Of a DNA stretch of 64,000 nt, positions 11,463 through 62,532 are shown piece after piece; the first letter of the stretch is position 1, and the number at the start of each line of letters is the position of its first letter. The stretch spans positions 3,743,080 through 3,807,079 of the forward strand of contig CM022668.1 of NCBI GenBank assembly GCA_012295275.1, written 5' to 3'. The position numbers were made by a program, and so were the translations under genes. This DNA is from Chrysomallon squamiferum. Taxonomy: Eukaryota > Mollusca > Gastropoda > Neomphalida > Peltospiridae. The notes below the pieces were generated by a model. It was not told the origin of the DNA. It did no database searches and saw nothing but the letters and a program-made list of their open reading frames with translations.

Positions 11463-16355
<4,893 letters not shown>

Positions 16356-23274: not shown

Positions 23275-23312
<38 letters not shown>

Positions 23313-23339
23313 TTTTTTTCTTTTTTTTTTTCTTTCCAG

Positions 23340-29787: not shown

Positions 29788-29834
<47 letters not shown>

Positions 29835-30462: not shown

Positions 30463-30518
<56 letters not shown>

Positions 30519-30916: not shown

Positions 30917-30978
<62 letters not shown>

Positions 30979-33900: not shown

Positions 33901-36900
33901 TTCCAAAATATTAGTTTCATACAATTGTCTTTAATGGTGACTACATTTAAAAATGTCAAATAGTGTCTGACTTCATACTTTAAGCTGCACAGCCAGGATT
34001 CACACAAGAGGTCACTCTTTTGTCCTAAAGTTCACTTTACTTTTTAAAAATATATCACTTGGAAGTTGAAAGTATTGATACTTTTTTTCTCCATTTTTGT
34101 ACTATGATCAAGTGAATATATCTTGCAAATGGCAAGTTGACTTCTATTATTTTCATCAAATTATATTTTTTAAATTAATCATGTGACCAGCTGTATGAAT
34201 GGCTGTATGAATGGCTGCATTTTAGTCTTGTGATTAGAGGTTGACAATAAGCACAGTTCTTTTAAACTTGTATACAAATTAAATTAACTGAGATGGACAT
34301 GATAAATGACTACATAATTGCATATACAGTAAAGAGTACAATTAACAACCAAACATAAATAGAGTTCCTAGATTTGAGAAAGCAAGTATTCTTAAACAAT
34401 TGTAAGAATAAAACTTTGTTAAATAATTTTATCACTTTTTATCACAATATTTTATTAGAATCAGGACATCAATGTAGACATGTAGATGTCTAATCTTGTG
34501 TTTGTAACAATGGCTTGGCTTTAGAAAGTTCAATATGTTGCCATTTGGGGTTTTGGTCTGCAATTACGATGAATTCAATAAGACTGTTCCAAAAATTGTT
34601 ATACATATTTATGCAGATTTCTACTTTTGACAAAGGCCGAGTTTCACAGAGTTCACTATGTTTGTGTGTGTGTTTATATATACACATACACACGTATACA
34701 CACAAACACACACGTGTATGTGTGTATATATTTATGTATATATACATACATGTGTATGTGTGTATTAATTTATTTATTTACTTATTTATTATTTTCTATC
34801 TAAATTTAAGTTAAAAATAAACATCTTTTACCTGGTAAATCAAAAGTTGATGCATACTCTTCATTTTGATCATAATCTTCTGCAGGGTCAAACGAACTTT
34901 CACATTCGTCCCCTGTCAGCAGCTCTTCGTCAGAACTGGCGTGTCGGGGTTCTAGGACAGGCAGCTCGGAGGTCAGTTTATCTCTGAAATCAGTTTAAAT
35001 TTAAATTAAAACAGCCACCTTTCATTTTGTTTTACATTATTTCAAAATTAATAACAATAAAACTTTATAGAATTCTAAAACCTAAATTTCTTTATGTGAT
35101 AAAATTCACCTTTATTTGTGATAAACCTCAGTTTTCTTTATGTACTGAAGTGATGTGTTGATAAAACTCACCTTTATGTATGGAAGCATTGTGCTGTTAA
35201 AACTCACCTTTCTTTATGTATTGATAAAACTCATCTTTCTTTATGTATTGAAGCAATGTGCTGTTAAAACTCACCTTTCTTTATGTATTGAAGCAATGTG
35301 CTGTTAAAACTCACCTTTCTTTATGTATTGAAGCAATGTGCTGTTAAAACTCACCTTTCTTTATGTATTGATGCAATGTATTGATAAAACTCATCTTTCT
35401 TTATGTATTGAAGCAATGTTCTGTTAAAACTCACCTTTCTTTATGTATTGAAGCAATATGCTGTTAAAACTCACCTTTCTTTATGTATTGAAGCAATGTT
35501 CTGTTAAAACTCACCTTTCTTTATGTATTGAAGCAATGTGCTGTTAAAACTCACCTTTCTTTATGTATTGAAGCAATGTGCTGTTAAAACTCACCTTTCT
35601 TTATGTATTGATGCAATGTATTGATAAAACTCACCTTTCTTTATGTATTGAAGCAATGTATTGATAAAACTCACCTTTCTTTATGTATTGATGCAATGTG
35701 GGCTGATAAAACTCTCTCCTCTTCCATCAAGTCTGTGTCCTCTTCATTTTCAACTTCTTTCACGGGAACTGGAGTTGATGGCACATTGACTGACCCTGGT
35801 TGTATCTGAAATTTGTAAACACTAATTACAATTTCAGTTCACCTACAGTATCAGAACTTACAATTTCAGTTCATACACAGTATCAATACTTACAATTTCA
35901 GTTCATACACAGTATCAATACTTACAATTTCAAGTCATGTACAGTATCTGTACTTACAATTTCAGTTCATATACAGTATCAATACTTAGTTTCAGTTCAT
36001 ACACAGTATCAATACTTACAATTTCAGTTCATATACAGTATCAATACTTAGTTTCAGTTCATACACAGTATCAATACTTACAATTTCAGTTCATACACAG
36101 TATAAATATTTACAATTTCAATTCATGTACAGTATCAATACCTAAAATTTCAGTTCATACACAGTATCAATATTTACAATTTCAGTTCATATACAGTATC
36201 AATACCTAAAATTTCAGTTCATACACAGTATCAATACTTACAATTTCAGTTCATACACAGTATCAATACTTACAATTTCAAGTCATGTACAGTATCAATA
36301 TTTACAATTTCAGTTCATATACAGTATCAATAAATAACTAAAGTAAGATGTGGGCTTTCTTTTTTTATTAAAAATAAATTATTATTATTGTCATATTTAC
36401 CTGAAAAAAGAGAAAATGTTTATAGCTGTCAAATATATTTTGTTTTTTTCTTTTTTTTACAGGACACAAACACGCTAAATCTAATGATCATCCAGCAGTT
36501 AATATTACGTACACACTGAAACAAAAAAGACAGTCACCCAAATTAATACAAACTGTACATAGATAAACAAAAGACTTCATTTCTGCCTCAGGTTCTTATA
36601 AAACAGAAATTTTCTGTAGGCACACTGACAGCTTTACCTTTGAGCCTCGTATACTAGCTCTGACAAAGGACAGACGGGCCGATGCTGTTTTCTCTGCAGA
36701 CTCCAGTGTGTTGATATCTGCCAGTGTTGATTTGATCTTTTCTAACTGCTCATTTAGTATACATTCTATACACCTGTAATAAATAAATAAATAAACTAAT
36801 ATATATAATTGTCAGTCAGTGTAGCATGTTAGATACTCAAATAGAAAATAGAAATAAACATTTAGTAATTTGATCATTTTGTGATTTAAAGAAGAAACCT

Positions 36901-37990
36901 TTTTAACACACTGGTATTGCATTAATGTTAATTCTTTTTTACATTTTTGTTTTAAACCCTTTCTAGTATTATATTATCACATTCTGAAAATCAAACAAGT
37001 TAAATAAACAGATAATGAAAATCTTTCTCAGTATGCACTTGAATTTTAAAGATAAATAAATATTAAGTGTCCATGCAATTAATACTTATTAAGAGTTTTT
37101 CAATACACATACTGTACTTATATCAGACACAGATAGTAAGCACTTGAGTTTTAAAGATAAATAAGTATTCCATGTCTATGAAGTTAATACTTACTAAGAG
37201 TTATTCAGTATACATACTGTACTTGTATCTCACACATGTATACTGTGTTAACACTTACGCAGTTTGTCTGGGTATCTGGTTGAGAGACTCCTGAGCTTGA
37301 AGTTTCTTGTTGCTACGAAGCAGACAAGGAGAGAAGATGATGGCCAAACCGTTTACTGTCATCTTGTTACTTTGTTCATGCATGGCCACTCTACAAACAG
37401 GAATTATACATTGCTATGTAGAACATAGATTACATAGTCTTTTATTCACTGGGTCTCTGAAATATCTTTGTTAAATATGTCTTTAAAATATCTGACACAA
37501 ATTCCTGAATAAAAACAGTATGAAAAAAAAAAAAAAAAAACTTCAATGAATATTACAAGGTATTTTTAAATATTTACTTTAGCAAAATAAGTCATATGAT
37601 TTTTCTACATAAATGTATATATGTGCATCAGTGTGTTTGCAAGTGTGTGCATTTGTTACAGAAAGTGAATGAAGGGGAGAGACAATAATACAGAAAGAAC
37701 AATAGAGAAGAAAATGTAAATGAGAGAAAGGCACCCCCACACACAGAAACAACACACTCGCAATTTACCTAGCTAAATGGAAGATGAGTCTTTCAAACAA
37801 ATCATAGTTGATTTTTGGCAGTCTCTCTATCGTAGCAAACAGTGACTGAACCTTTTCTTTCTGGTCCTGTATCTCTGTAACAAAACAAAATCATTTACAC
37901 TCCTGTAATACAGCTGTACACTTCTGATATCTAGGCTTTAGTTTTTATTATTATTATTATTATTACTGTTATTATTATTATTTTTGTTGT

Positions 37991-38035
<45 letters not shown>

Positions 38036-41000
38036 TTTTCTTCTTCTTCTTCTTCTTTAAATGTCTCACAACAAAAACAAGCGTTGTTTTTGAACCAGGC
38101 TATCAAAAATCAATTAGTCAAAATAAACAATTTATAGAATGATAAATGTTAAATTTCAAATTTACCTGAGGCTCGTAGAAAATCATCATAGAGGTCAAAG
38201 GTGAGGAGAGGTTCTGGAAGTTCTCTGAAGTAACATTTTAATGTTGATGTGAGAACATGAATGGGAAACTCTTCAAAATCCACTGTGTGGATGTCTGATC
38301 AAACAAAGATTAAAATACAATACAAAAAGGCTAAGATAACAGAATTCTTTCAAACCAAAACAACAACATCCAAAAAAGACAAAACCAAAAAAACTAAAAT
38401 AAAAGGAAACAAAAAAACAAAAACAAAAAACAAAAAAAAAATATATATATATATATATGTAAAATATTATTTACAGTCAGAATGGAAAAGATTAAACAAT
38501 GAAAACAACAACAAGCAAAAAAAAACATAATAATAATAATAATAAATAAATAAATAAATAAAATTAAAATATGACATTTGTCTATGATTATATTTTAAAC
38601 TGGCAGTTTTCTCACCTTTCTCTACCAGCTCTTTCAAATGTCTGACTTTAGGAGCAGAGCCAGACTTCCTGTACAGCCCCTCTGTGTACATCCCATGTAG
38701 TTCTATAGCAGCTACAAGCCTCTCTGCCACCTCAGGAACTTTGTACCGCTCGTTGATCTGCGACTGTAAGGGCGCTCCAAACACATGGAATGGTCCTCCA
38801 CTCTGAAACACAACTGCCATCTAGCACTTGACTTGTATTTAATCTCAAAAACATAGCATTATTTAACAATATTCTGTTTTTAAATGTCACTGGTAAAATC
38901 ATACAGTAAGCGTAACCAACAGAAAACAAACTGTCAGAAGTGATTTGTAATTCTAGAAAACAATTTGTGTAAATAGTGGATTTCATTTCCATAAAATAAA
39001 ACATTTGTAAATTGTAATTTCAGAAAACAAAACATTTGCATATTGTAATCTTAGAAAATAAAAAAGTTGTAGATTGTAATTCCAAAAAAAAATATTTGTA
39101 CTGTAATTTTAAAAATTAAAATCACTGTCTGCAGTGTACAGTAATTCTGGACTAATACATGTAGCAGACTGTAATTCTAGAAAACATTTTTTAAAAATGT
39201 TAATATATATATATATATATATATAAAAAAATACTGGAACTGGTTGTTACAGAAGTGAGAAAAAGAAAGTGATGAGATTTCAAGACAAACCTGATTATCT
39301 GGAATTCCCTTACACACCGCGGTAGACTTGGAACAGCATTTCTTATGACATGTGTATTTACAAACTGAAAATAAATTATTTTTGTCACAAAATAAAAACT
39401 ATTATTCCTTTATGTGAAATTTGTCACTTACTGTATTGTTAAAATAGACATTAATTATAACTTTCATAATATATTATTCAGATTCCATAAAAAAATTAAA
39501 TGTATTTTTTCCTAAATCATTTAAAAAACCACGAAAACAAATCAAACAGTTTATTAACATGCTTTATTTTTATTGTTTTTTGTTGTTGTTGTTGTTGTTA
39601 TAATATTATTACTACTATTATTATTATTATTATTTCAAACAGCTACACAAGCTAAGCAATGGCATGAAATGATGTACTGACCTTGACATACTTGACCTTT
39701 CTCCATGATCCAGATGATATTTGAGCAGTACTCACAGAATGTAGGAATATTAAACTGAACTTGGAAAAATTTGTGACCTAAATGTTCCTGCAAGTAAAAA
39801 TTCATATATCACATTTTAAAACTGATTTTTTGATTTTCAGTATAAAAATCCAGTAACAGATTAAAACTATTTTATTTTTTAGTCACTTGGAATGATCTCA
39901 GAACTGTTTAGGAACAAACCTGATTATTACTACTACTATTATTATTATTATTATTACTACTAATACTACTACTATTATTAGTATTAATTTTTACTTACTA
40001 TTATGGCATCTTTTTTGTGTTTGTCTCTCTTCACTGGTTTATTTTCTACTTTTTTAAATTTCTTTCTCACTTCAGGAGTTTTCATAAACTCATCAAGGAA
40101 TCCACGGAAAGCATTGATTCCCAGAGTTATTGGAAGCACAGCATTCGTTCTCTCACCTTTGACCTCCGCTGACATGATCTGCTCGAAGTTTGCCAGCAGG
40201 TCACGGTACCGAACACAAACTGTCTCTTTCTGAAAAACAAAGCCAATAATCCAGTTAGAAATACCACAATCAGGCCATTTAATTTTAAAAGTTTATATAA
40301 TCCCTTTTTTTTCTCAAGAAACAACAATAAAACTTTCAACACTTTTAAAGTATATAAAATATATTTAAGGTGTCTTTGTACACAACAAGTACACCTTGCT
40401 TTAAGTCTAGCACTGAGGAGTTACCTGCATCTCTACAGCTATGGAAGACTTGAGTTCCTTGCGGAAAGATTCTATTGAGCTACGGAAAATTGTTTCAAAA
40501 ACTGTCGATCTCTTTCCTTCATCTTTCCCATACAGTTCCTCTTGCTGGAAAAACCATGTAAGTGATAAAAATGTGTAAATCATACAAAGAATGCACATAC
40601 TAGAATGCACAAAAAACACATAATATATCTCCATATATTTATGAAGTAAATAAGATTATTTCATGTTTCTCTGATAAAAATAAAACATATGTATACAAGT
40701 TATTCACATAAACTAATTTCCTTGAGCTAAAATGACACAGTTTTCTAAGAAAGCTAGATGTGAATTTGTAATGGAAAATATTATAAAAATCAGCCAGTGT
40801 GACTGACTGCAGCTTCAAGGTGAGAAACTCATCAGCAGTGAAAGAAAATTTAGTTTTAGACTACACATCAGACAACTCACTTTCAGGCTGTTATTACTGA
40901 CAGTTACATAATTTATTACTGACAGCAGGGGAGATAACTGACCTTCTTGGCTATGAATGTGTCGAGACAGTAGAGGTCGGACAGGTCGGTGATGCACAGT

Positions 41001-42423
41001 TCAGCGGGGTACTGCCACTGCGTCATCCCTGCAACGTTCCAGTTACTGCGTGCTGTCTGGGGTTCACTCAACTTCCTGTTTCGCATTCTCTTCTTCTTTG
41101 GTTTGCCATTTCTCTGTTTGAGGGGCTCACCCCCTGGTACGACAGGGTGTTCCTTCTTGTGCAGTGGGGGTGTAACAGGGGAGTCTGGAGGTTCCTCTGC
41201 ATGACAAGGTGGGAGAACAGGCACACCCACTGAAACAGAACAACTTTGCTTAGCACATTTACAAACAAACATGTTCTGTGTAACAGGGTTACGAAATCTG
41301 CTACCATCAATTCATGGGTTACGGTTACTGAATAATAGCAAGAGATATGCATAATCTGACAGAAAAAATATTAGGAAGATTAAGTGATTATGCAGCAGTC
41401 CAAATGACAAAATGTATTAGAGGAATGATCTTCTAAAATTTGTTTCAAGTAAGCATTCTAAGCAAAAAGCTTTATTATTAAGTAACAATTATTATATTAA
41501 AAAAAACATAGAAAGGAGATGTTCACTGGTACAAAAAAATTCATAAACTGGTCCTCAAGTTACATATTAGAATATAGTGAAAATAAAATGGATAATTATG
41601 TTTAAACAGTGTTAACTAACAATCTTGAGGTCGTCTGTGGGGTGAGGGTTTTGCTGGGGACCCACTTTCCTCTACCTCCTCATCACTGTCCTTCTTCTTC
41701 CGACCTGAAACAAAAACACGTCATCTGTTACACACCTAGACATTACCTCTTCTTGTAAGAAAAACAACAGTCAAACATTAATGTGCTTAAAACATATTAA
41801 ATTTAAAATATATCAAACAAATGAGTTAAAGATATGAAATTTGTTAATGTTGAAATTAATTAAAAATTCTGCTTAAAGACACATGCTGACACACACACAC
41901 GCACACACGCACAGACACACACACACATTCATTCTCTTTCTTGCCTTCTAAAACACACATCATTAATAAAAATTAAAGCAAAACCTTTTAGTGGTATGCT
42001 AAACTTTAACTTCTGAAATATTATTATTTGATAAAAAACTAAATTAAATCTAATCTATACTGAGTATATCATATTTATGCAATTAATCTTAAACTTTATA
42101 ACTTAAAGGTAAATAATTATTTGTGAAATTCTAGTAGATTGTACAATGTGTTACGAAGCAAATCCCCCACAATGAGGAAACACACAAAAAAGCATGATGC
42201 AATGTAAATAAAGGTCAAAAATAAATAAATAAACAAAAGTTTCACTTCAACAAGCTCATTACTTTCTAAATTTCAAGCTAAATTATCTTGCAATCTTTCT
42301 TAGTCATGGAAATAAATAAATAAATAATAGTAATGAAAGTAATAAAAGCAATAATGTAAAATAAATAAGTAAGATAAGTAATAAATTAATATTTAAAATA
42401 ACATATTCTATAATTAAAACAGC

Positions 42424-42455
<32 letters not shown>

Positions 42456-44978
42456 AAATAATAAATGGAAATTAGTATATCTAGGTATGTGAAAGGTATG
42501 TGAGTTATGCACACAACATGCATCATACCACATTCCTCAAAGACTGTTTGGGAGAGAAAGAAGAAGTAATGTCTTTAGTAAATTACAAACAAGACAACTG
42601 TTAATAACTGAAAAGAAATTTATTTTTCCCTACCATCTGAAAAATTAATCAAAATTCATCTTGATTTCCTCATTACAAATATTTTTTTTTTTTTTTTAAA
42701 TGGTTTTGTTTTATTAGCCATGAATTACCTTGGTAAATTTAGTATTTAAACAACACACTGCCTACAAAGACTGTTTCTGTATTTCAGAAATGAAAATGAT
42801 AAAGACTGAGACTAATTTCTGATGATAAGAAAATAGTTACTAAGAAGGCGAATTTGTTCAACTTGAACTGTGCTACTGGTTCTTCACCAATAAAAAACTG
42901 TTCAAAACACTTACTTTTTATTGATAACACAGGTTTTTTAATGATGTTAAAAAAATAAAAACCAGTTTCATGTAATGTAACATTTATAGACTGGTCAAAT
43001 AAACATTTTTATATATTAAATATTATTATATATTAAATACCAAAACAAATGTTTGGGTATATTGTGGACATTTTAAAGGGTCTATATTAATCTTTGAAAG
43101 AGGTATTTATTTATTAATAATCTAATCCATAGAAACTGTTTTTACTTGTTCATGCATACCAACTGATACAAGTATAAAGATTATCTTGTACATAACAGAT
43201 ATATATCAAAGTGAATGCTGAATAATAATACTATTAAAAGTTATTACACTGAGGAATACAATTCTGAGGAGGTTTGGGGACAGGTATTAAGAAGAAGAGA
43301 CTGCTGGTTGAGAGCAGGGTGTCTATCATTACTTACTTCGACCTCGCAAGTATCGCAGTGAATTGCGAGTATGACGAATGAGACTGTATGAAGGAACACA
43401 ACCTTTCCCATCTTTAAAATCAAACACAACAGCACTGTTGTCATGTTTTAAAGGACTATAAGCCTAGCAAATCTGTGTTCTTGTTTAATCACAACCACTG
43501 CTATCTTATTCTTAATCATAAAAGCAAGTGAAAGTAACTGTTCATCATAGTAAAAATAGAGGAAATTCTGCCCATTCAAGTTAAAACTAGCTAGTTGTAA
43601 AGTAGACCTGTTAGCTCTATGTTAAAGCTAAACATTAGCAAAACCCTAAAGACATAAAGATTTTAATTTTTGACTACCAATTAGTTATATGTGTGTGAGT
43701 ATAGGGAATTATGTATGTAATAATTTTGAACTGGCAGATGTATCTAGAGTACAACTACAAATTAAAGATTAGTGAATATAGTGAATTATTTACACATGAA
43801 ATTGTGTACTGACCTATGTATCTAGAGAAAATGAGTGAGTGTGTGTGTGTTTGAGTACACTGACCTATAACCACACTTTTGAGATGTTTAATGGCTGATC
43901 CCAGGGCACTCCGGTGTTGGGCTTCTGGTGGGATGTTCTTCTCACTGTCCGAAACCTGCTGTGTTAGTCTCTCCCTCCCCTTCAACACTGCATCACCAAT
44001 AGCCTGGATCTTCTCCTGGGCAGGGAATACATTCTCTGAGGTTTCAGGCGTGGCTGGAGATGAATCCTGAATGAGAAATAATTAGTTTCACTAGTAGAAC
44101 ATGTATCAGTGTTAAATAGCAGTCTCAGAACCAGTGCTTGGTTGATTATAGATCATGTAGAAACATGACCAACAGCTATTTGACTTTAAATTTTAATAAT
44201 AATAAAACAATACCATGAACATGTGATTACTGATCAGTAAAATAAACATTTTGCATCTAAAGGTAATGAGGATAAAGTAATTTGATAAATTGCACACACA
44301 CACACACACGCACAGACACACACACACACACACACACAAATACACACATGTATGTTTAATCAGGTTTTGTATTAAACAACTACTATTTAATCTATAAAAC
44401 AGTTTATTTAAGAAATACCAACATAAAGCTTTTTATTAGTACCCAGAACACAACAGGATTAACACAAGTACAAAACACTTAACACTGTACAACAAAGCTT
44501 TTCTCCAAACACATTACATTTTCCTATTGTTGTTTCTTTTTTCTTTTTTTAATGTTGTAGCACATTCAGAATCATTCCATGCTTCTTCAGTTTACAAGTT
44601 AAAAAAAAATATGTTCAACAATCTTTATTCAATAATAAAGCAATGGGTGCATTTAGTAATGTGCAGACTTTATTTCTAATTTTAAACAGTATGTTCAGTT
44701 TATATTATCTTAATAAACACTTTTCATGAAAACTTTGTAATTACTACTTTTTTATTGAGTTCACTGAAAACTGTTACTCCTGTTCTATGATTCAGTGTTT
44801 ACTTATCTGAAATGGTGGATTACAAGGTTTTTATCTCACCTTGAAGACAGTTTTCTTTAGAAATAAATAATATCTATATACTGTACAATATGTGGGATGT
44901 TTTACAGAACATCTAAAAATAATAAATATACATTTCCATTATTTAAAAAATAATAATAATAATAAAAATAGAAAAGAA

Positions 44979-45010
<32 letters not shown>

Positions 45011-46293
45011 CACAGCAAAATTTAAATAACAGACTGGAATGCTAAGATTTATTTCATATGAAATATATTTCTTTAGAAACCTTTCCATTTATAGAGAAAC
45101 ACTGACATCATTTGTATGTATTTTCAAAATACTATTATGGTTTATATTGTCGAACATGAACTGGACATACAAAAAAAAAGTAAAAAAATAGAACTTTAAA
45201 AGAAAAAAGTACCCACTACTTTATACACTGCCACAGCAAAGCTGCTATTTTATCAAATTAAGAAATAAAAGTGTGTTAAAGTGTTAATGATGTTTTAGCA
45301 TGAAAACACTGTTACTGAACACTGTTAGTAGTCACAATGAATGCTTTAACACAGCAAATAGGTATCAAATCCATTTTTAAATTAAAAAACCAAGAAAAAC
45401 CCAACTCACAAACACAAACACACACATTATATGCATGCACTAAACAGACACATAAACACTTACATGCTCACCCCCATGCATGCACGTAACACACACAAAT
45501 GTAAATGAAAACAATTACAGAAGTGTATGTTCAAGGCATGATAATGATGACTGCCAGTTTTTGTATCACTTACAAACAAGATGTGTTCAGTAACAGAGAG
45601 ACACTACAACATCATAATGCCAACACAAACATGAACATATGCAGTCACAAAATAAAAAAATAAACAAAAATAATAATAATAATAATAATAGTAATAATAA
45701 TATTTAGGAATAGTATTACTTATCCGAACTTTGCAACAAAACAAGACAATGCAGCAACAAACAAGTCAAAAATGAGACTGGTGCCACTTTTCAAAATACA
45801 TCAACACAGGAGAAGTAGTGCACAACGGAACAGTATGAGGTTATGACTGAAAGCTCTACACTAAGCTGTGTGAGTAAAACGTGAAAAGAAGCAGCTGGCT
45901 CACCAAGTCAGAAAAAGATTCCTGTGTGGCCAGTGGTGCTGGTGATGGTTTTAACGGTTTCCATTTCTGAGAGCCTCGTCGTATAAATACCATACGTCCA
46001 TCCGTCTGACATGTTAGAAAGACAAGTTTAATTCTAGCAACTGTCTTACTTTAACAAAATACTTACTCACTCACATTCACACACACTCACACACTATATA
46101 TACATATACACACACACATTTGACATGTTAGGCAAGTTTAATACTAGCAACTGTCTTACTTTAACAAAATACTTACTCACTCACATTCACACACACTTAC
46201 ACACTATATATACATATACACAGACACATTTAACATGTTAGAAAGACAAGTTTAATACTAGCAACTGTCTTACTTCAACAAAATACTTACTCA

Positions 46294-46359
<66 letters not shown>

Positions 46360-49040
46360 CATACATACACACACACACACACACACACACGCATACATGG
46401 ACACACTCACAGATACATACACATGTACTCAGAGATGGAATTGCACGTACTCACATATGTAGACACTTTACATACACAGAAACACAGACACACACACACA
46501 TGCATATAGGCACATAATCACACACATGTACTCACTCACTCACATGCAAACTATATTCTCACAAGCACACATTCACATGCAAGCACATCACACAAAACAT
46601 ACTCAAATAAATATATATTTATACCGACAAACATACACACACAGACCACCAAAATTATATACCTTTACAAAACCTTGCACACGTGTGCACACACACACAC
46701 ACACTCACAACAAAAAAACACACACATTTTTATGTGAAATGTTATTTGTTGATTATGTCACACAGGCTACCATATTAAAACAATCAAAACAAACACATAA
46801 AGAAAAGTAATTTATATCAGTGTCAGAGAATATTTGTTCCCTCATTATGTGATTGTTTTCAGGTATAGTTCTGTATTCTGTTTGTGGTAAATACTGTGTC
46901 TACTAAAACTGACTAAACACCATGCAGTAGATATTCATAAAAACACATTTAAAATGTAGATTGGTAGAGAAATAATTGGGGGATATATTTTACTAATACC
47001 ACCTTGAAAAAAAGAGATATTCTTCTTTTTTTAATATGAAGGTGAAAATCCTTTTATCACTGATTATTCTTTTTATTATCAATAATTCTGTGTAGATTTC
47101 AAAGCATACCTGCAGTAATTTTGAATTTCTTTGAAATTTTGCTATTAATTTGACTCACCTGATACTTATGATAATTATCTTCAGTATCACTCTACCTGAA
47201 GTCTCAGATGGATGACAAAAAAGACCAAGTAATGAAGACAATAACCCAACCAAGTAAGAAACAGAAATCTATGCCAACATCACAGAAAGGGAAGAATCCT
47301 CAGCCTCATCTGAAAAGTCTGAGGACTCTCATGGAGGAAAAGAAGAGAATCCATGTCAACAGCACCAAAATGGATACAAATCTGCAAACTCCTTGGGCTT
47401 TTATGAATGAATGAAGAAAATGAACGTGCTAATCAGAGAAAGCTGTGTGAAGCACGTCTACGACAGGCACACTTTCTCACAGGTCAGCGGGCGTGTCCGT
47501 CACAGAACTTGGGCTTTTATCATGTTCGGCATGTTAAGAGTGTCTACTTCAGTACAGAGGGACATAATCTTTCACAACCAAAGTGCATACTCCACATAAA
47601 TGGGAATCACTTCAGTGTTGTCCTATCATTAAATTCATAGAGACTTAGAGGAAATCAGATTAAAGTAGATTAAGTTAGAAGGAAATGCTACGTGTATTGT
47701 ACAGTCAGCAGGTTAAGTTACCTGATAGTCATATTTCCACTGGGTGATGACAAAACATTTAAGTAAAGTGTTTATTTTGTGGAAATTGAAAGAAGGAAAG
47801 TAGCTTTAAATTGGGCAAATCTCATTGAAAACTTTCATTATGTCTTTTACCTTACAGCATCAAAAACCCAGATTTTCTGGGTAACTGTAAAGTTCTGGTA
47901 TGCTTTTTATGCAACCAGCAATCACTAAGCAAAAGTTTGTCTCTTAACTGTCACACACACACCCTGTATACATACATCTACTGAATACGCATTCTCGTCT
48001 ATTTATCATTTAACATTAGGAAAATCTGAAGTTTAGACTGGATAATCTGCTCTCGCACTTCTGCAGCTTTTAACTTTATTTTTCAAAGTTATATTTCTAG
48101 TTATCAAACAGGTGTGAAAATATTGAAGAAAATGAGTTTTAAAAAATGCATAATTATCCAAGTATGAAAATTCCACTTTAATTCCATAACTTAAGGCACT
48201 GGGAACCAATAGTTCCTCCATGCGTGTAGGGGAACAAATGTCCATGGATAGGAACAAATATTCTTTTACACCGACCATTAAAATATAAAACATTATATCC
48301 TGCACTGAGAGATTTTAAAACTTACTCAAATAAAAATAAATAAAAGACAAAAACACAAAGAAAACAAATCTTTTCAAAAAGGAACCTGAAATAATAATGT
48401 AATTAAGAACTAAGTAAGAATGTACTTAATTGATAAAAGGATCCTTGTTAGTAATTTTCTTTTAATATGTATTTTTGGAAAGGGGATCTTCTTGACAAAA
48501 ATTCAGTTAATTTGAAAACATTTAACAACAACTAACCTGTTCTCTGTCTGGTGTGTTGAAGGCTTTTGCCAGTTGAAGAACTCTGAAAGAAAACATAAAA
48601 TTATATTCTCTCACATCTCCTGTACATTTACCTTTGTCTCTGTATCTGTGTTGACAATATTTACTTTGATAATTGTTTCATAACTTTGATAACATTAATG
48701 TTAAACATGTACCACTGACTACAAATGAGCTATTTGTTATGCATACAACAGGTATAAAATTTGCTGTCTAACCTTCCTGAATTTCTGTTTGACTCTGAGT
48801 CATCTTTCTCTGCAGGAATGAACACGTGGCCAGAGCCAGTGGGTGTGACCGGTGGACTGACCACTGAGTCCATCTGGCTCCTACTGTCTGTCAACATTGT
48901 TTCTGACTCAGAGTCTTCTAGGATTCCACTGCTCCTTTTAAAAATAAATGAATAATATTACATGAATTAAATTAAACTAATTTAAAACAGACAAAAAATA
49001 AATAAATTAATTAATTAATTAAATTATATTAATTTAAAAC

Positions 49041-49083
<43 letters not shown>

Positions 49084-52000
49084 AATAAAAAAAGCTTTCA
49101 AAACCAAATAAAAGTGAACTACCAACACAGAAATAATTCAGTTAGTAAAGTATTATTGAGTTAGAAACATATTAGTGTATTTTTCAATCTTCATGCTAAC
49201 ATACTAATACAATTTACACTTTGATTTGTCATGAAACTCTTTATATTTCAACTCTGTATTGAAAGTGACTAACAAAGAACACACAGAAGAAACAGCAAGT
49301 TCAACAAAGACTCACTCCTCCGAATCTCTCCTCTGTACTGGACCAATATCACGTTCCAACTCTTCAGCACTTGACTCCTTTATCAGCACCCCCTCATCAC
49401 TGGTGGAGGACTGCATGTCCTCACCTTGCTTCAACCTCACCCTCTCCTCCTCATCCCTCCTCTGTTTCATTCTCAACATCTCACTGTACCTACAAAACAT
49501 TGTCCATTAACATTATTTTGATGCGAATGACATCTTGTTTTAAAATTCACGTAAAGTATAATTTTCTTGAACTATTTATATAAATATCTAATCAGTTTAG
49601 AATATTAAAAGTAATATATTAGTATTTTAGAAGCACTATGTCTATGATTGTAGATTCTCTTTTGTGTGTATACATGAGGAGAACCTACAATCATACTGCT
49701 TTAAGATACAAAATGATATACATATAGTGAAATGTGTCCGAACCTATTGATACTGGGGATTGTTTTGTTTTTGATTCAGTAAGAAATAGGAATGACTGAG
49801 GTCTGCCATCAGAATCTAAGAAAGACTTTGAGGAATGGAGTAATCTAAGGATTAGACCATTTTTATTTGTTACTGGATGACAGTCTCACTAGAAACATTT
49901 TTCACTGACTGTGAAAGTGAAAATACAATTACAGCTTATTTTAGCCCTATACTGGACAAAGTCTGTGTTAACGACTTACTTTCTCCTTGCCAGATGTCTG
50001 CGACACGCTGTCTGAACAACAACCACGCGAGACAGATACTGTCGATAGCGTCGACGTACAACCTGTCCACGATACCACTTCTGTACAGTGACAGCAGCAC
50101 TGTGACGTTCACGCAGTCGTGCCAGTTGTCGCTGAGCAAGATATCGTCTTGTGAATTTCTGAAAAAATTTATTTGAAATGTTTATATCTTATATAAAATG
50201 TCAACATAAACTTGTAACACAATACAAAGTATTTATAAAACATAATACTAAAAAAGTATTCAATAAAATACTAATATAAAGTTGCATTATAAAGTATTTA
50301 TAAAACATGATACTAAAAAGCTATACAATAAAATAGTAATATAAAGTTGTATTACAAAGTTTCACTACACAATTTTGAATCTCAAGGTATCACAATTTAA
50401 TATATGTGTCTTAACGGGAAACTTCAATACAAAATATCAACACCAAACAGTGTGAAAATAAAGCTGAGCTTTCTGCTCTCTAAAAGATATTGTAACTCAA
50501 AGACTTTTTACCTGTACTACAATTACAGCAGCTCTGAGCCGAAGGAAGTTTTGATGTTCAAGGATTGTTTTTGCCCAGCGCTGAATTTTGACAACTCTCT
50601 CCATGATGGCTCGGTGCAAGGCCTCGTCCAGTAGTATCTTCTCACTCTCTCGTAAAAACAGCTGACAAAACATCACATTCTCATTTAAAACATGAACCAA
50701 ATATCTTCTCACTCTCTCGTAAAAACAGCTGACAAAACATCACATTCTCATTTAAAACATGAACCAAATATCTTCTCACTCTCTCGTAAAAACAGCTGAC
50801 AAAACATCACATTCTCATTTAAAACATGAACCAAATATCTTCTCACTCTCTCGTAAAAACAGCTGACAAAACATCACATTCTCATTTAAAACATGAACCA
50901 AATATCTTCTCACTCTCTCATAAAAACAGCTGACAAAACATCACATTCTCATTTAAAACATGAACCAAATATCTTCTCACTCTCTCGTAAAAACAGCTGA
51001 CAAAACATCATTCACATTTAAAACATGAACCAAATATCTTCTCACTCTCGTAAAAACAGCTGACAAAACATCACATTCACATTTAAAACATGAACCAAAT
51101 ACCTTCTCACTTTCTCGTAAAAACAGCTGACAAAACATCACATTGTCATTTAAAACATGAACCAAATACCTTCTCACTCTCTCATAAAAACAGCTGACAA
51201 AACATCACATTCACATTTAAAACATGAACCAAATATCTTTCTCTCTCTCTCGTAAAAACAGCTGACAAAACATCACATTCACATTTAAAACATGAACCAA
51301 ATATCTTCTCTCTCGTAAAAACAGCTGACAAAACATCACATTCTCATTTAAAACATGAACCAAATATCTTCTCACTCTCTCGTAAAAACAGCTGACAAAA
51401 CATCACATTCTCATTTAAAACATGAACCAAATATCTTCTCACTCTCTCGTAAAAACAGCTGACAAAACATCATTCACATTTAAAACATGAACCAAATATC
51501 TTCTCTCTCTCTCGTAAAAACAGCTGACAAAACATCACATTCACATTTAAAACATGAACCAAATACCTTCTCACTTTCTAAAAAAAACAGCTGACAAAAC
51601 ATCACATTTTGTCATTTAAAACATGAACCAAAACCTTCTCACTCTCTATCATAAAACAGCTGATAAAAACATCACATTCACATTTAAAACATGAACCAAA
51701 TATCTTCTCACTCTCTTTATCTAAAACAGCTGCTGAAAAAACATCACATTCACATTTAAAAAACATAACCAAATATCTTCTCACATTTTAAAATAAATTT
51801 CTAAGATAACAAATTAAAAACAGCTGACAAAACATCACATTCTCATTTATTTGAACCAAATATCTTCTCACTCTCTCGTAAAAACAGCTGACAAAACATC
51901 ACATTCACATTTAAAACACGAACCAAATATCTTCTCACTCTCTCGTAAAAACAGCTGACAGAACATCACATTCTCACCAACCAAATGTCAAATTCAAAAT

Positions 52001-52586
52001 GAAGGTATATGTGTGTGTGTGTGTGTGTGTACAAACAGACAGGTCAACAATGAAATGATTTAATAAAGAGAAATACCTTTAATCCATCTATCCACTACAA
52101 ACAATATTAATAATCACTGAGATAAATATAAATTAAACAATTCTTATGTGTTCATAGTGGGAAAAAATAAAGAAAATGTTTGTGTTCAACTTGTTGAATG
52201 TTAATTATATAGAATTCAAAAATGTTTAAATCTTTATCTGAAACTTCACAGACAGTGCTGAGCAAATTAATTAAGGAGGAAATAAACATACAATGACAAT
52301 TTTTTTTAAAACTACACAAAACATTTTAAAATAAATTTTAAGATAACAAATTAAAAACAACTTTAACAAGAAATAAACACACCTTGTTGATGCCAATCTG
52401 ATAATTTTCTTGATTCATTGCCATTTTGTCGAGAAAAGATTTCACATCCTTTTTGGAACTGAGCAATCCTTTTGGCAGCAATATTTTATACAACTGAATA
52501 AACTCCTAAAACAAACCAGTACAGTTTATATCTGTCACTAATAATGCAATGTTCAATTGGTGTAGTCCAACAGTACTACTGCTACC

Positions 52587-52617
<31 letters not shown>

Positions 52618-55600
52618 CTTTAAATACTAAATACTATTATCTCACAAACTGTATTTTAGAAGCTTTGGATAAAATTATTTTTCAATAAAAGTATCTTCAA
52701 GTAAAAATCACAGCTTTATGTGTATGTTATTTCTTTAGGTCAATTTTTATTAATTTTATTAAGTTTATTTTATTTATTTATTTATTTATTTATTTATTTT
52801 GAAACAGAAGCTGAATACTGGAAGACTTTGATTCAGAAATGCTGCCTGTTTATAGACAAATTTATTCTTGTTTTTTAACATGTCTATTATAATGTGATTT
52901 TTTTTTTTTTTTTTTTTAAATATTATGTTTACATCTGTGTTTACCTCGAATGTTAGTCTGTAGTTGTAACCAGACTGTCTGATCTTCACCGTGGCCAGCA
53001 TCCCCGTGTACCTCAACTGTCGCAGAACAATTTCATCATCAAACACACAGGCAGCCTGAAACACAACACACAGAAGTTAAACAATTTCATCATCAAACAC
53101 ACGTGCAGCCTGAAACACAATACACAAAATTTAAACAATTTCATCATCAAACAAACACAAAGCTTGGAACACAATACACAAAATTTAAACAATTTCATCA
53201 TCAAACAAACACAAAGCCTGGAACACAACACACAAATTTAAACAATTTTCAAAGTTTGTTTCTGGGCATAAAAATTACTCTGTATATCCTTTATCTTTGG
53301 TTAATATAACAATTCAAATTTGGTATTTTGGTACTTATTATAACATTTATATATTTAAATAATAATAAGAACAACAACAACAAAACATTAACTATAAAAA
53401 TATTATTATTATTATTATTATTATTATTCTCCATCTTTATTAATTTTGTGCTCAATACTACAGGCTAAAAAAAAAGTTAAAAAAAATAATAATAAAATGA
53501 AATAATAATAAAATGAGTTTTGTGTTCTGTTTATCAACACTAAAGTTGATTTCTACTCTTGTTATCACACAGGACTGAGATGAGAGTTTTGTGTTCTGTT
53601 TATCATCACTAAAGTTGATTTCTACTCTTGTTATCACACAGGACTGAGATGAGTTTTTTGTGTTCTGTTTATCATCACTAAAGTTGATTTCTACTCTTGT
53701 TATCACACAGGACTGAGATGAGAGTTTTGTGTTCTGTTTATCATCACTAAAGTTGATTTCTACTCTTGTTATCACACAGGACTGAGATGAGAGTTTTGTG
53801 TTCTGTTTATCATCACTAAAGTTGATTTCTACTCTTGTTATCACACAGGACTGAGATGAGAGTTTTGTGTTCTGTTTATCATCACTAAAGTTGATTTCTA
53901 CTCTTGTTATCACACAGGACTGAGATGAGAGTTTTGTGTTCTGTTTATCATCACTAAAGTTGATTTCTATTCACTCTCTGTTATCACACAGGACTGAGAT
54001 GAGAGTTTTGTGTTCTGTTTATCATCACTAAAGTTGATTTCTACTCTGGTTATCACACAGGACTGAGATGAGAGTTTTGTGCTCACCTTATCAACATTTG
54101 ACTTGATGCAGCGGATGAAGAACGGGTTTGCTTGATTTAAAGCTGTCATCAGTCGAGACAAAGACCACTAAAACACAACAGTAAAATTTAAAATAAAAAC
54201 TCAATGAATTAAAACATTTAACATTATACTTGATCAAAATAACTTCAGATGTTTTTTTTAAAGTTTTTATTTATTACGCTGAAAACTACATCAAGCAAAA
54301 TGGTCCACTATGCCTGGGGCAACAACAACAAAAAATGTACTGTGGTTGCTAATGCACTAATGCAAGATAAAGATAGTTCAGTAAGTAGGTGTCACAGGGT
54401 AAAGTTATATTATCTCAAGGAGTGACTCAGAACACACTTATAAACATATATGATTTCAATCAATTCAGCTACAATTTCATTTCTATATTTTGTTTTACTT
54501 GTTGTATGAACAGATAAAACTGAAATTAGCTGCAGTTATTTCAAATTAAAACAGGCTGCTCTAAACAAAATGCAAAATAAATAGAAAATGAACTAAACAA
54601 GTAGTAAAGACATCATCTCACCTGGAACTGGGCACCAACACTCGGTGACTGCTTTTTAGATCCGTGACGACTTCCTCCGACATTGAGCATTGTTCTATGA
54701 GCAATTGCTTTTAATGTCTTGATATCCCTGAAACTCTGAGTGAAGATCAAAATAGTTCACAGTTATTTTATATACAACAGGTTACTTCATTCAAATCACT
54801 ATACAACTCTTTTGATACAACTGTTAAAACATAACTCTTTCAATTAGCACTACAATTCTAGTCACCACCTTGTTCCAAATACACAGTCATAATTATTAAA
54901 CTCACACTGACAGTAAGTCATACAAGAAAATAAATTAAAAGTCATTTAATTCTATTGGTCATATGATAATAAATGTTACAGTTATAAATTTCATATATTT
55001 ATTTCTATTTAAGTAAGCACATACCAGGGAAGGTCGAGGTCGTGGTTTGAAAGACTTGTTTTTTCTGAAACATCAAACATAAACATTTTATAACAACCAA
55101 AGCACATTAATATAAATATCTTTCTCTTTATTTAATTTTTACTTGTTAAATTTGATAAATAGGTAAGTTATTTAACTCAAATTATGAAAACAGTATTAAA
55201 CACATTTTTGTATCTTCAAGACATTCAAGTTTGCTAACTTTAATTAAATCACACACACACACACACAAAAAAAACCACAGTTACATCACAGACAAACAAA
55301 TTCATACAGTTACAAAAATATTATACACATACAGAGAGACATATCAAACATACAGGTGAATAGACATAAAAATGTATCCTTTTATTTTAAGACATATTCC
55401 ATTCTTATGTAAAGAACACATAAAAATACACAAAAACAAAAATCAGAAATACATTATCTCAGTTAAGCAAACAGTTAAAAAAGCTAGTAAACTAGTGACA
55501 ATATTAATTTTGAAATAAACAAAATAAAAAGAAAAAAAAAAAAAAAGAAAGAATAATTGTAACAATAACAACAACAACAACTGCTTGGTGACAACGCCAG

Positions 55601-55727
55601 CAATGCTGATGTGATAGGATGAAGCCATGTTATTATATGTACGCACACACACACACATTATTAATAACAACGATGGTTCATATTTTGGTGTTTTGAAACA
55701 AAATGCAAGCACACAGACACACACACC

Positions 55728-55791
<64 letters not shown>

Positions 55792-57616
55792 AACACAAAC
55801 ACATTATTAATAACAACGATGGTTCATATTTTGGTGTTTTGAAACAAAATGTGAGCACACACACACACACTGACACACACACACGCACGCACACATGTAC
55901 ATGCACACACAAACACGCACACACAAACACAAACACACATATATGGTTTTGCTACTGATTAAAAAAAAAGTAAAGTGGAAAAATTTAAATACTATAAAAG
56001 TTAAAAAGAATTGTTTTTCTTTGGTCTTTATAAAATGTTAGAAATTATTTTGAATTATTTTGTTTATTTCCAAGTTTAATTCTAGTTTATCATTATACAA
56101 GTATATGTATATATGTATGGTTTTTAACTACAGCAATTTATCATAAAGTAATTTCAAATTTAGACTATTTCTGGTTTATTTTAAACAATTTTATATTATT
56201 TCAGAGTTTTGGCTAGAACCAACTTAATGGACTTATTGTTAGACTAAGTATCTAGTTTTCATTTATATAGTATTTCACAGTTCAGACTATTTACATACTG
56301 TTTTTTGTTTTTTTACTTTATTCAGTTTTTGAGATTTCAAAAATAACTCAATTATCTGTTGATGTTTGTTTGGTGAAACAAAATTGTGAAACATACTTCA
56401 GAAGTTTTCTTGCTTTTCGGATCACTTTTGTATCAACTGCATTTAAGTATGACTCCAAAATATGTGTCTCCAATAACTCATGCTTGTTCATGTATGCATT
56501 CTCATCATCACTAACTGCAACAGCGAGGTCATCATTGCATGCAAACTGCTGACTGTCAAGCAGGGGAGACAATCTGTCTGGTCGGAGTGACAGGTCAGTG
56601 GAATGGACAGTGCTAAATGTAACACATCAACAACGTAAGTGCAAACAAACAAAATTAATAATGAAAGCATTTGAAACAAACATGCAACAACAATCGTATG
56701 TTAAACAACAACAAACAAAATAATAAAGGCAAAAAAAGCTAAGCTATTTGAGATTATTTTAAGATTTTTAGCATGTCTTTTTTTTACTTTTTTCAAAGTA
56801 CCGAAAATTAGGAAACTGGTTTTTTTTTATGTTTATTTTTTAAATCATATTAATATGTAATGTGTGTTTTGTGTTTATCTGGTGTTATTTTAAAAATTCC
56901 ACAGCCATAATTAGTTTTTCTGCTAGACAGCTGATGTCACTGATTAAAGTTTCCTTTTTATCTGACAGACACAGAACTGTGTGGATCTGGAAACAGTAAA
57001 AACAATGAATTTCTTATAAATTCTTTTAGAAAATATATAAATAAATTTATATTAAGTTTTATGGTAAATATTTCTTTTTCTTTTATTTATTTCTTTATTC
57101 ATTATTATTATTATTATTATTATTATTGTTTTTTGTTTATTGTTTTTTTTTAAATCAAAACTTTTAGGAACCAAATTACAGAATATCTGTATATCAGTAT
57201 GTAGCTTCCACATGCAGGCAAAACAGTGCAGTTTTGTAAGAGCATATTAAAAAAAAAAAAAATTATGTACTTTTACATTAGTTTGAAAGTTGTTTAGTTA
57301 TTAATTTGAAATTCCATGCTCATGTGTCATTAGTGGGTCTATTAATTAGTTTAAATGTGGGCAGCAAACACCACATTTAACTTACTGAATCTTACGAAGA
57401 ATTTTCATGGTATGAGCAACATGGTAAAATCTTCAATATAAACAAACAAAACATTAATTCTAAATCTATTTCACAGATTAAGATAAAGAATATCCATTAA
57501 CTCCAATACTAATCTTAATCCCATCTTACAGATGTAAGAGATATGTTGTATTAATCTGAAAACAATTTTTATAAAGCTCTGTGTAAAAGCTGAAGATTCT
57601 TAAAAATGTATTTATT

Positions 57617-57661
<45 letters not shown>

Positions 57662-58563
57662 TATGTAAAGAAACAAAAATACAAATTTAATTAAAAAGTA
57701 GCTTTAACTAAAATAAAACAAAAAAGTTAAAAAAGCATAGAAAAAAGTTAAAAACAAATAAATTAAATCTTATGTTTGCAAATCTTTATAATTTTAAAAA
57801 CATATTTTTCAAGTTGAGTGCTCTCTGACAGTTGTCAACAAACTATAATATCTTGTTTTTAAGAAAGACTGAACTGTTTGTGTAGTACATAAACTATGAA
57901 ACTACTCATGCCTGTTTGCTTATATGACTCTTAGTTTTGTATCTGTGTGTTTGAAAAGAAAGACTGTGACAGTAATATCTATTCATGCAAGAAGTAAGAA
58001 CTACTAAACAAGGCTGACTTGTGTGTCAGTCTGCAGCAGTAGAAATAATGAAACTTAAATAAATTAAAAATAACAAGAACTTAATGGAGTGATAACAGAG
58101 AGGAACATCTATGAAGCAGACAGAGGATTCAGTCAAACATGAGTTGTGTTACAGAGCATCACCACCCAAGCATTGTAATTAATCAGTTGAAAAATAAAAC
58201 AAAGTCAGGACTTAAATAAATAGTCAGACATTAACTTTTGTTATTTTTTGAGCATCACAGAATTCCTGTGTGTGTAATCATTTAAAATAATTTTGTCAAT
58301 TAATTCCCAGAGACAAGTGAAAGAGAGAAGTATGTAAACTGGAGAAGAAGAGACATTACATGTGATCATACTTTACAGATGTTCCTGAAGAGCTCAGAAA
58401 TAACACAATGCACAATAACTACTTTATAAATCAACCGATAATTCCTTGTTTATTTTTCTGTTTATTGTACATTTAATCTGAACAGTATTAAATTATTGCT
58501 ATCAAATTATAAAATACAAAAACTCTTGTTTTTACTTCAGTTTTTATAATAATAATAATAATC

Positions 58564-58609
<46 letters not shown>

Positions 58610-61600
58610 CAATAAACATCATATGATGATGATGATGATGATGATTATGATAATGATGATGATGATGATAATGATAATGATAATACCTGAGCAGGTTGTC
58701 AGTGTAAACAACATCTTGTAACTGGGAATCTGAAAGTCGTTTCAGGTGAGCAGGTTTGTTCTCAGAACCTACATACAGAAAGACAGAAGTAAGTTTCCAT
58801 GACAACAACATGTCTGGCAAAACTATTAATTGAATAGAATTCTTATATTTAAATTTTAAAATAATGCAATGAAATTTAGTAATGATAATAGCCATGGATA
58901 AATGAATTCAAATGAAGAGAGTTCTCTTCTGTGTTAATAAATGTATTTTAAAATGTTTGTGTATGTATGGGTGTTATGTTTCTGGATGGGGTTAGGTCTG
59001 CTGTCTATAATTATTTTTTAATTACATCTGCAAAGCTTCATGTTTTACCTCCATGTTTTCTGTAATTTTTACCAGCACCAATGAAAGCAAAGAAACACCG
59101 GAAAAATGCTCTAACAACAGACCAGCGTAGAACTGCCACGGGATCAATTCCTGAAAGAGAAAACTTTTAACATCAACAGTCACATTACTAGTCAATCATC
59201 AAACAATATATACAAGAGAAAAATTCACTTAAGAAACATTAATTTTCCATATATTACATTTTCCATTAGAGGGATTGTTTACACAGATCTTCTCTTAGAA
59301 AGGAAAGAAAACAGATTTTCATAAACAGTCAAATTTGGTATAAAGGTAAACAATTCTTGAACAGGGGGACTAATACTGTCTGTTCAGTTTTGTTTTGGAC
59401 AATCACGCACTAAATGTACACTGAATGAGAGAAAAATGTGTGACATTATTATAGATAAATAATATAAAACACTGAAGTCTCACCTACAAGTTCTCTGACA
59501 AAAGAAAAATTACTTTTCTTCAAAACACCAACAATGTCAGATCTGATCAGGTCAGAATTCTTCTCTCGGAAATCCTTATATTAAACAAAAGTATTTATAC
59601 ATTTAATGCTAAATTATGTAAATCAAATTTCAGTTCCATATGTCCTCTAGAGTTAATATTGTCTACAGTGTTCAAAAATTTTAGTGTTATGTATGTATGT
59701 ATGTATGTATGTATGTATGTATGTATGTACGTACATATGTATGTAATGTAATGTATGTATGTAATGTATGTAATGTATGTATGCATGTATGCATGTCATG
59801 TTCTCTATATGTATATATAAAAATGGTTGTGCATGTCTGTCTGTAGCTATACACAGACAGACTCCAAACACCTCTGTTTATTGTAATATTTGGAATCTGT
59901 GTCCACTGGTGTTATTTAACAACTACATCTAAAAGTAGGTGATTTTTAATGCACTATGTGTAATTTTTATAATGTGACCATCTACATGCGTAATATGCAA
60001 CAATTTTTGTTGTTATCTCTGTGATATTTGACTGAAGTTACTTTGATGTGATGTTTGACTGTATTTGGCACCTGTATTTACTTTGATGTGATATTTGACT
60101 ATATTTACCTTGATGTCATATTCGACTGTATTTAACTCCTACATTTACCTGATGTGATATTTGACTGTATTTACCTTGATGTGTTGTTTGACTGTATTTA
60201 ACACCTGTATTTACCTTTTGATGTGATATTTGTATTTACTGTGTATGTGATATTTGACTGTATTATCACCTGTATTTACCGTGATGAATATATTTGTGAT
60301 GAATATATTTACCGTGATGTGATATTTGACTGTATTTACCTTGATGTGATATTTAACTGTATTTACCTTGATGTGATATTTGACTGTATTTACCCTGATG
60401 TGACATTTGACTGTATTTACCTTGATGTGACATTTGACTGCATTTACCTTGATGTGATATTTGACTGTATTTACCTTGATGTGACATTTGACTGTATTTA
60501 CTGTGATGTGACATTTGACTGTATTTACTGTGATGTGATATTTGACTGTATTTACCTTGATGTGATATTTGACTGGACCAGCATAGTGCAGGATTACGAA
60601 GGACTCTTCTTTTCGTTGTGGTACTTCATAATATGGATTACTTTTGTGATGCTGAGTGAACTTCGTCAGCATCGTCTCATTAGTTGCTCCAGGAAAACTG
60701 ATCAGTGAAAACAACAGCATTAGTTAAAGAACAAAAAATCTTAAAGCCTTAACTTTTTGTTTAATGAGAGGACTGTTATTTTCTGTTATATATTTTTAAA
60801 TTTAAATAAAAGTATGGAAGACTGAACATTTTTATTTTTTATTGTTATCATAAGGATAACAATGATGATGATGATGATGATGATTATTTGACAAACTATA
60901 GTAAATGTTTATGAGACCAAAAAGAAATCATATGAAGAAATACAGACATCAAATAAAAATATTTTTTTATGTTTTTGCTATTATGGTCAAGTAACTATGT
61001 CAAACCAACAAACAAGGACATACTGAAAACAAAACACAAAGTTTATAACATGATGACAAAAAAAGAAATGTATATTATTTATAAACATTTACTTACTTGC
61101 ATTCCTCATCCAGCAGAGCAAACAAACCATTTGCTCTTTTAGAAAACAATTCCAGGCAGCCTGTGTTATCTATAAACTCAATATTTTTCCACTGTATACC
61201 TTCTCTTTGATATTCTTCCTACACAGAGACAAATAGTTTTATATACAAATTTAATATTTTTCCATTGTATACATTCTTTATATTAAATAAATAAATAAAT
61301 AATAATGATGATGATGATGATGATAGTGACAATAACAATAACAAAACATAAATAAATAAACACAACTGTTAAGCTTTATGCCTGGATTTATAAGTAATTA
61401 GAAGAAAGGAATCAGTAGTAGTTTTAAATGGTAGACAACTCTTAGCTATTTCTTTGTAGAGGTAAAAGTAATCAGAAAGATTTCTACCAGCTACTTACAC
61501 TAATCTTATTCATTCCCTAATTTCACTGACATATTTAGAGTGTGGCAGATAAGTTTGTAATCACATTCATAAATTGTTTATGCCAATTTGGTTGACATGT

Positions 61601-62462
61601 CTCTCCCTACTCGCTAAGTTCAATAAGAAATCATGGGTACATCAACATGTAACATAGGTATGCTAGTCAAACTGCTTTCACAGCCCAGATATGAATTCAC
61701 TGGCAGAAGCATGTCAGACCCAATTCAAACAATCCTGCACAAAACTTTTTTGGATGGCCTTGCATACAATACTATGTCTTGTCTTTCTGTGTAATTTTGC
61801 TTGAATAACAGCTCAAAAACCTCAGTTATGAGTGATTTCTATACTCTATTCCTATTTTAGGAAAAAGATCAATTTTACTGATTTTCACAGTCTCTTTTTT
61901 TCTTCAAATTACATGTCAAAACAACAGAAATAAATTCCTATAATTAGTGACTGATAATTAGTTATAAAATACTTAATATAAATATTAGAAGGCTGTTTAA
62001 GTATCATTTGTCTTCCCAGCAATAACAAGGATCTAATAAGTTTTAGTGTAATTTTTGTTTTTTGAAGGTTTTTTTCATTCCTGTCTCACACACAAACAAA
62101 CCTAGGATTCTGTGTTGTGTGACAAAGATGGATGTTCAATATAAACATTTTTCAAACAGCTGATTTACTGAATGGAAATTCAGTTTGTACCTAACTGAAT
62201 GGTGATTTCTCCTTTTTTAAGTGGAAGTGTGTTTGAGGTCAAGAAGAAAAGTGACACCAGAGTTTGTTACAAAACTTATACATGATATTTAACACTGCCT
62301 ATTTCCTGTTGTATGTTGTATTTAAACATAGATTATAATACCACTAATTTCTAATTTACTTATGTATATCTTAAACATTAATTAAACAGGGGTGGCATAT
62401 TTAATACCACCATTTTCAAAATTATATTATATATTTTTAAACTTTGTTATAACATTATACAT

Positions 62463-62532
<70 letters not shown>

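Follow-up and report, generated by a model that had tools for sequence, protein, structure and literature searches.

Minisatellites repeating exon-intron boundaries in a gastropod MYO9 gene, most likely a side effect of how minisatellites arise and turn over

We analysed a 64,000-nucleotide stretch of Chrysomallon squamiferum DNA (contig CM022668.1, positions 3,743,080 to 3,807,079 of the forward strand; hereafter the window, C4:3743080-3807079 in the searched genome of 404,604,130 bases and 22 contigs). It contains the unconventional myosin IX gene MYO9, which carries tandem arrays at its exon edges that resemble the mirages, or minisatellites of exon-intron boundaries, known from amphioxus. 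MYO9 lies on the minus strand (29353..62716). The spliced alignment of Gigantopelta aegis MYO9 gave 34 exons, 66 exon edges and 33 introns, all GT-AG with an aligner that allows no donor but GT or GC and no acceptor but AG, and a protein identity of 83% (81% from a crude join of open pieces). The median intron is 454 nt, and the authentic exons, once joined, encode an uninterrupted protein with no stop in 1516 residues. Judged by this sequence, the host of the gene is a gastropod related to Gigantopelta. The window holds the C-terminal three quarters of myosin IX: its first MYO9 exon starts at 62713, and exons found in the flanking DNA together with genome matches indicate that the 5' part of the gene runs past 64000. 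In that flanking DNA, no array was found at any trusted exon edge of the 5' part. Residues ~293-411 of Gigantopelta MYO9 have no counterpart at the expected place (L002-L005, C4:3807080-3847079), perhaps an assembly gap, and this stretch was excluded from the counts because the aligner put false exons there. No close MYO9 paralog was present among the matches listed in the genome (24 listed; 23 of 196 candidates scored).

In four MYO9 arrays, all given on the minus strand like the other arrays of the gene, the repeat unit spans an exon-intron boundary, and both 5' and 3' boundaries are affected. First, the exon 3 donor array (60020..60575; exon 3, 60697-60556) consists of about 20 copies of a 27 bp unit made of the last 17-20 nt of exon 3 and the donor GTAAATA. 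Second, the exon 32 donor array (35080..35714; exon 32, 35805-35675) has about 15 copies of a 40 bp unit that joins the last 26-40 nt of exon 32 to the donor GTGAGT. Third, the exon 11 acceptor array (53026..53251; exon 11, 53055-52945) repeats the acceptor and the first 30 nt of exon 11 in 4 copies of 54 bp. Fourth, the exon 13 acceptor array (50635..51995; exon 13, 50661-50512) repeats the acceptor and the first 27 nt of exon 13 in about 20 copies of 67 bp, including the authentic one. A further array at the exon 10 donor (53515..54081; 8 copies of 69 bp) starts 5 nt inside the intron, the donor itself being at 54087, and its decoy donors are dead. In its last 27 nt the unit agrees with the exon 10 edge at 18 positions, a value reached by about 3 of 32,676 other places in MYO9, and we count this array as a decayed donor case. 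Intron 10 thus has an array at each end (exon 10 donor and exon 11 acceptor). The arrays make up 536 of 981, 763 of 1031, 1334 of 1721 and 595 of 691 nt of the four introns that carry them, that is more than half and up to 86%. This makes two acceptor arrays and two donor arrays besides the decayed one, in agreement with a sequence-only reading of the window, which had described at least four minisatellites carrying 20-40 nt of exon edge plus the splice site, with two copying acceptors and two or three copying donors, and a fifth that looked decayed; all five arrays were found where it had placed them, and the four that straddle an edge contain 20 (exon 3), 30 (exon 11), 27 (exon 13) and 40 nt (exon 32) of exon.

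Other arrays lie close to MYO9 exon edges and are free of exon sequence. Two of them are at most 5 nt from an acceptor: the exon 18 array (46009..46343; 3 copies of 110 bp) ends 3 nt before the acceptor, its copies containing the tract that precedes the AG but neither the AG nor the exon, and the AT-rich exon 16 array (48939..49061; 2.4 copies of 52 bp) ends 4 nt before the acceptor. The intron 31 array (35826..36332; 16 copies of 32 bp) ends 20 nt before the exon 32 acceptor and contains no splice site above the cut-off defined below; many of its copies read GTAAGTATT and two read TTTTAGGTATT, which are near donor and acceptor motifs but below that cut-off. After the exon 30 donor, an array of 2 copies of 105 bp (37030..37236) starts 22 nt inside the intron and is intronic only.

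The sequence-only reading had proposed testing whether arrays are enriched at exon edges, and at the level of the gene the answer differs between measures. First, 4 of 10 strong MYO9 arrays straddle an edge, against 1.2 expected when arrays are placed over the whole gene (p 0.02) or 1.6 when each is kept in its own intron (p 0.06); counting those that straddle or lie at most 25 nt from an edge, 8 of 10 were observed against 1.8 or 3.0 expected. Second, when units were collapsed to their origin, p varied with the array set between 0.0005 and 0.023, with arrays and units listed by hand and hand-picked low-complexity arrays dropped from one of the four sets. Third, 7 of 13 MYO9 arrays had their proximal end in the range from 45 nt inside an edge to 5 nt outside it, against 1.8 expected (p 0.0008), even though Tandem Repeats Finder splits two arrays whose distal parts were counted separately, which works against enrichment. 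A first permutation test on three MYO9 array sets had given p 0.13, 0.03 and 0.06 while counting the wholly exonic array 62637-62682 as a straddler, and this array was left out of the later tests. It is an imperfect 24-bp duplication entirely within a coding exon of the motor domain (exon 1). Thus, enrichment is seen in the counts of array ends and origins but not in the occupancy of edges by copies, which we return to below, and whether MYO9 alone exceeds chance depends on the null chosen. The sequence-only reading, which held that an ordinary minisatellite would seldom span an exon edge, points in the right direction but overstated this, as about 1.2-1.6 of 10 are expected to do so in a gene with 66 edges. 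These expected straddlers, and the fact that arrays occupy the intron interior more than the edges, are what coincidence in a minisatellite-rich genome would produce, some arrays covering edges by chance. However, the observed counts are higher than expected in MYO9 and, more weakly, outside it, and we consider coincidence an unlikely explanation.

Since MYO9 had been picked because it looked odd, a test outside the gene was needed. A search of the genome with Gigantopelta nicotinic acetylcholine receptor (nAChR) sequence gave 81 matches, part of which are covered by the 48 loci analysed: 29 of the 30 first cut out (L033, inside the window, was excluded) and 19 chosen stretches, some of them around the same matches. 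Each edge tract comprised 45 nt of exon and up to 600 nt of intron. Over 181 unique supported edges, 5 of the 12 arrays with an end in these tracts had it between -45 and +5, against 1.4 expected (p 0.009, one array being counted twice). In four stretches of other myosins, whose 46 exon edges rest on distant MYO9 motor domains, 1 of 3 arrays was at an edge (p 0.31 alone). Pooling everything outside MYO9 and counting the doubled array once, we obtained 6 of 14 against 1.65 expected (p 0.003), or 5 of 13 against 1.53 (p 0.013) without the L015 case, which sits on a decayed duplicate exon. Clear mirages were found at three nAChR loci, namely L053 (47 bp unit, 19 nt of exon), L011 (~70 bp unit, 18 nt of exon) and L013 (49 bp unit, 11 nt of exon), and at the other-myosin locus L055 (40 bp unit, 14-16 nt of exon). 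All four are donor cases; the L009/L038 array contains only 4 nt of exon. This test was not blind, since we had already seen the MYO9 distances and the first nAChR results when settling on the filter and the range of -45 to +5. It therefore provides good evidence that mirages recur in this genome and moderate evidence that array ends are enriched at exon edges outside MYO9.

Several features of the nAChR genes were seen along the way. Two subunit genes lie head to head beside MYO9 in the window, at 1188-1433 (minus strand) and 11460-16352 (plus strand). The second extends into L037 and has its best match likewise in Gigantopelta; a comparison of its exons with the arrays revealed no straddling minisatellite at its 10 edges in the window. 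At L036 (5207-6861, reverse orientation), L015, an nAChR intron contains a decayed duplicate of the preceding exon. The donor edge of this duplicate forms a mirage of its own, with 3.5 copies of 102 bp, and the exon-side copy has seemingly lost its donor. Near position 2002 of L011, the authentic donor is apparently GC (GCAAGT), and 3 of the 4 intronic copies shown read GT.

The reappearance of edge clustering in other genes makes an amplification bias towards junctions possible, as the sequence-only reading had suggested, although the clustering is moderate and the occupancy of edges shows no excess. A process tied to splicing or transcription, through R-loops, paused replication or exon-edge nucleosomes, might actively make tandem duplications at junctions. 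It would explain the crowding of edges in MYO9 (7 of 13 array ends against 1.8, and 8 of 10 strong arrays straddling or within 25 nt), the similar crowding outside it (5-6 of 13-14 against 1.5-1.7, p 0.003-0.013) and the fact that donors and acceptors are both affected in MYO9. We nevertheless find this explanation doubtful. The samples are small, the filter and the range were not set blind, the other-myosin set is unremarkable when taken alone, the nAChR gene of the window has no straddling minisatellite, and every clear case outside MYO9 is at a donor. Moreover, the same pattern could arise if arrays anchored on a conserved exon copy simply persisted. We raise only tentatively the broader idea that junctions are hot spots of tandem duplication, seeding arrays three to four times as often as nearby intron, so that introns would go on growing through mirages, as a general process, in a lineage far from amphioxus.

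The copied splice signals were scored with matrices built from the other sites of MYO9, and the cut-off was set at the bottom 10% of scores among the sites of the gene itself. Many but not all copies keep their signals: 42 decoys reach the cut-off in the repeat units of four arrays, as donors in exon 3 (11) and exon 32 (12) and as acceptors in exon 11 (2) and exon 13 (17), whereas other intron sequence holds 1.3 donor-like and 3.3 acceptor-like sites per kb. At this cut-off, no donor of the exon 10 array is live. So many decoys could suggest that selection keeps the arrays as decoy or alternative sites, either to adjust MYO9 expression or to supply peptide repeats, all the more as the first six decoys of the exon 3 array are in frame and, if used, would lengthen the motor domain by 27 to 72 residues. 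However, with 36 of the 42 decoys tested, translation would reach a premature stop. Copies also diverge from their consensus alike in their exon and intron parts, with 33/390 and 23/210, 58/400 and 15/140, 5/90 and 5/72, and 28/540 and 34/800 differences in the four arrays (exon part first), and the two parts are indistinguishable in each (Fisher p 0.32-0.75). The last pair covers 20 exon 13 copies including the authentic one, without which the values are still similar (28/513 and 34/760). Since the exon part is thus no more constrained than the intron part, the exon 10 copies have no live donor and most decoys lead to stops, selection for decoys, as the sequence-only reading had proposed, is not supported. 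Similar arrays also occur in unrelated genes, and we judge this explanation very unlikely.

How the copies differ from each other also speaks to their history. Divergence grows with distance from the exon in three of the four arrays (rho 0.63, 0.44 and 0.72; p 0.01, 0.05 and 0.0004), while the fourth, with three copies, showed no trend. The three intronic copies closest to exon 13 are identical to the authentic copy, and by eye neighbouring exon 13 copies share variants blockwise, as after duplication of several units at once. These distinct shared variants and the gradient of divergence, together with the same anatomy at eight junctions in five genes, are hard to reconcile with an assembly artefact in which copies of one junction were misassembled or inflated. 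Such arrays are nonetheless hard to assemble, some nAChR stretches contain runs of N that may be gaps, and one amphioxus mirage was apparently misassembled in the draft genome according to its authors (available part of PMC3087553). An artefact strikes us as highly improbable, but the copy numbers of the arrays in the assembly may be inaccurate.

At the ends of the arrays, the overhang beyond whole units measures 8 nt at both exon 32 and exon 11, 10 nt at exon 10 and 3 nt at exon 3; the end of the exon 13 array was unreadable. From base composition, a chance match of 8 letters has estimated odds of about 5 in 100,000. The overhangs of 8, 8 and 10 nt point to a birth between short direct repeats, and by eye the L053 array ends in a 6-nt partial copy. 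Taken with the divergence of the copies, these data suggest that the MYO9 arrays, which are mirage-type minisatellites, were probably born neutrally by slippage between short direct repeats and then subjected to array turnover. A pair of short direct repeats, exonic on one side and intronic on the other, would have chanced to flank a splice junction, and slipped replication between them would have duplicated the intervening segment. As the new copies would have landed in the intron, the protein would have been unharmed as long as the authentic exon-side site stayed in use. The array would then have grown and shrunk by slippage and unequal exchange, as the shared variants and the divergence gradient suggest, lengthening the intron, and the decoy splice sites would be by-products.

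Several observations weigh against this neutral origin or against parts of it. First, six other arrays, two of them outside MYO9, gave overhangs of -3, -1, -1, 0, 31 of 32 and 8 nt; with five of the six lacking an overhang, an origin from direct repeats is not established as the general rule in these arrays. Second, under plain neutral birth, array ends would not be expected to cluster at edges. Splice consensus motifs may supply extra short repeats, or the conserved exon copy may keep edge arrays recognisable, both of which are speculative. Third, at scores of at least 20, a copy was near 4 of 66 edges compared with 12-16% of 3000 sampled intron positions, so that no excess is seen at edges; as these are less covered than the intron interior, the argument for enrichment comes from array-origin counts only. 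Fourth, the exclusive use of the authentic sites is itself presumed from the sequence. Taking all our observations together, the arrays most likely come about as a side effect of the way minisatellites arise and turn over, and not as a splicing device. The one aspect that could yet surprise is how array ends crowd at exon edges. If mirages are common in this genome, they offer natural tests of how the spliceosome chooses among a dozen near-identical sites, and of whether tandem duplication at exon edges feeds intron growth and intron gain.

Elsewhere in the window, open pieces of a gene with several likely exons lie at 21600-23500 on the plus strand, and a 22-bp unit is repeated 13 times with 97% identity at 9680-9970, outside any gene found; this array is probably young.

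Repeats at splice junctions have precedents in other systems. In human IFI6 (6-16), as reportedly described by Turri et al. in 1995, a minisatellite provides multiple splice donor sites; it resembles the donor arrays of MYO9 in its donor-like copies, but several of these are used in transcripts according to the title of that work, whereas those of MYO9 are predicted sites. Human segmental duplications contain minisatellites at exon-intron boundaries, which are likewise expanding and have units of about 30 bp; they differ in that alternative transcripts and new introns are documented there and that they belong to recent paralogs (PMC2812944, in the part available). In potato, an intron of an RdRp gene was gained through a tandem duplication across an intron-exon boundary (PMC4974935, available part), and such a duplication copies splice signals as in MYO9, where no new intron was sought or seen. 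Tandem dual-specific splice sites occur in polyubiquitin genes, as far as the accessible text of PMC10809524 goes. The birth of minisatellites by slippage between short direct repeats, proposed by Haber and Louis in 1998, is described in the available part of PMC6162428. Three of the five MYO9 arrays have overhangs of 8-10 nt, as such a birth would leave; one has 3 nt and one is unreadable.

The closest parallel remains amphioxus, where the genes Adh3, the globins BflGb6 and BflGb9, TnC and PGBD5 carry mirages, those of PGBD5 and TnC having been added by the later paper (PMC3087553, PMC3902484; both in the parts available). The data presented there suggest to their authors that mirages leave regular splicing undisturbed. 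Ours differ in being found in a gastropod, with four clear cases in one gene and units of 27-70 bp compared with 10-160 bp, and in being known from the sequence of one assembly, while those of amphioxus come with splicing, allele and somatic data. Among the matches listed in our literature search, which covered few subscription journals, we found no report of mirages in a mollusc. As in MYO9, the accessible accounts of the amphioxus arrays describe tandem copies of the boundary, donor or acceptor, many of which keep AG or GT, and array ends unlike the middle. Thus, the MYO9 arrays belong to an already known kind of repeat, in what seems to be a new phylum for mirages.

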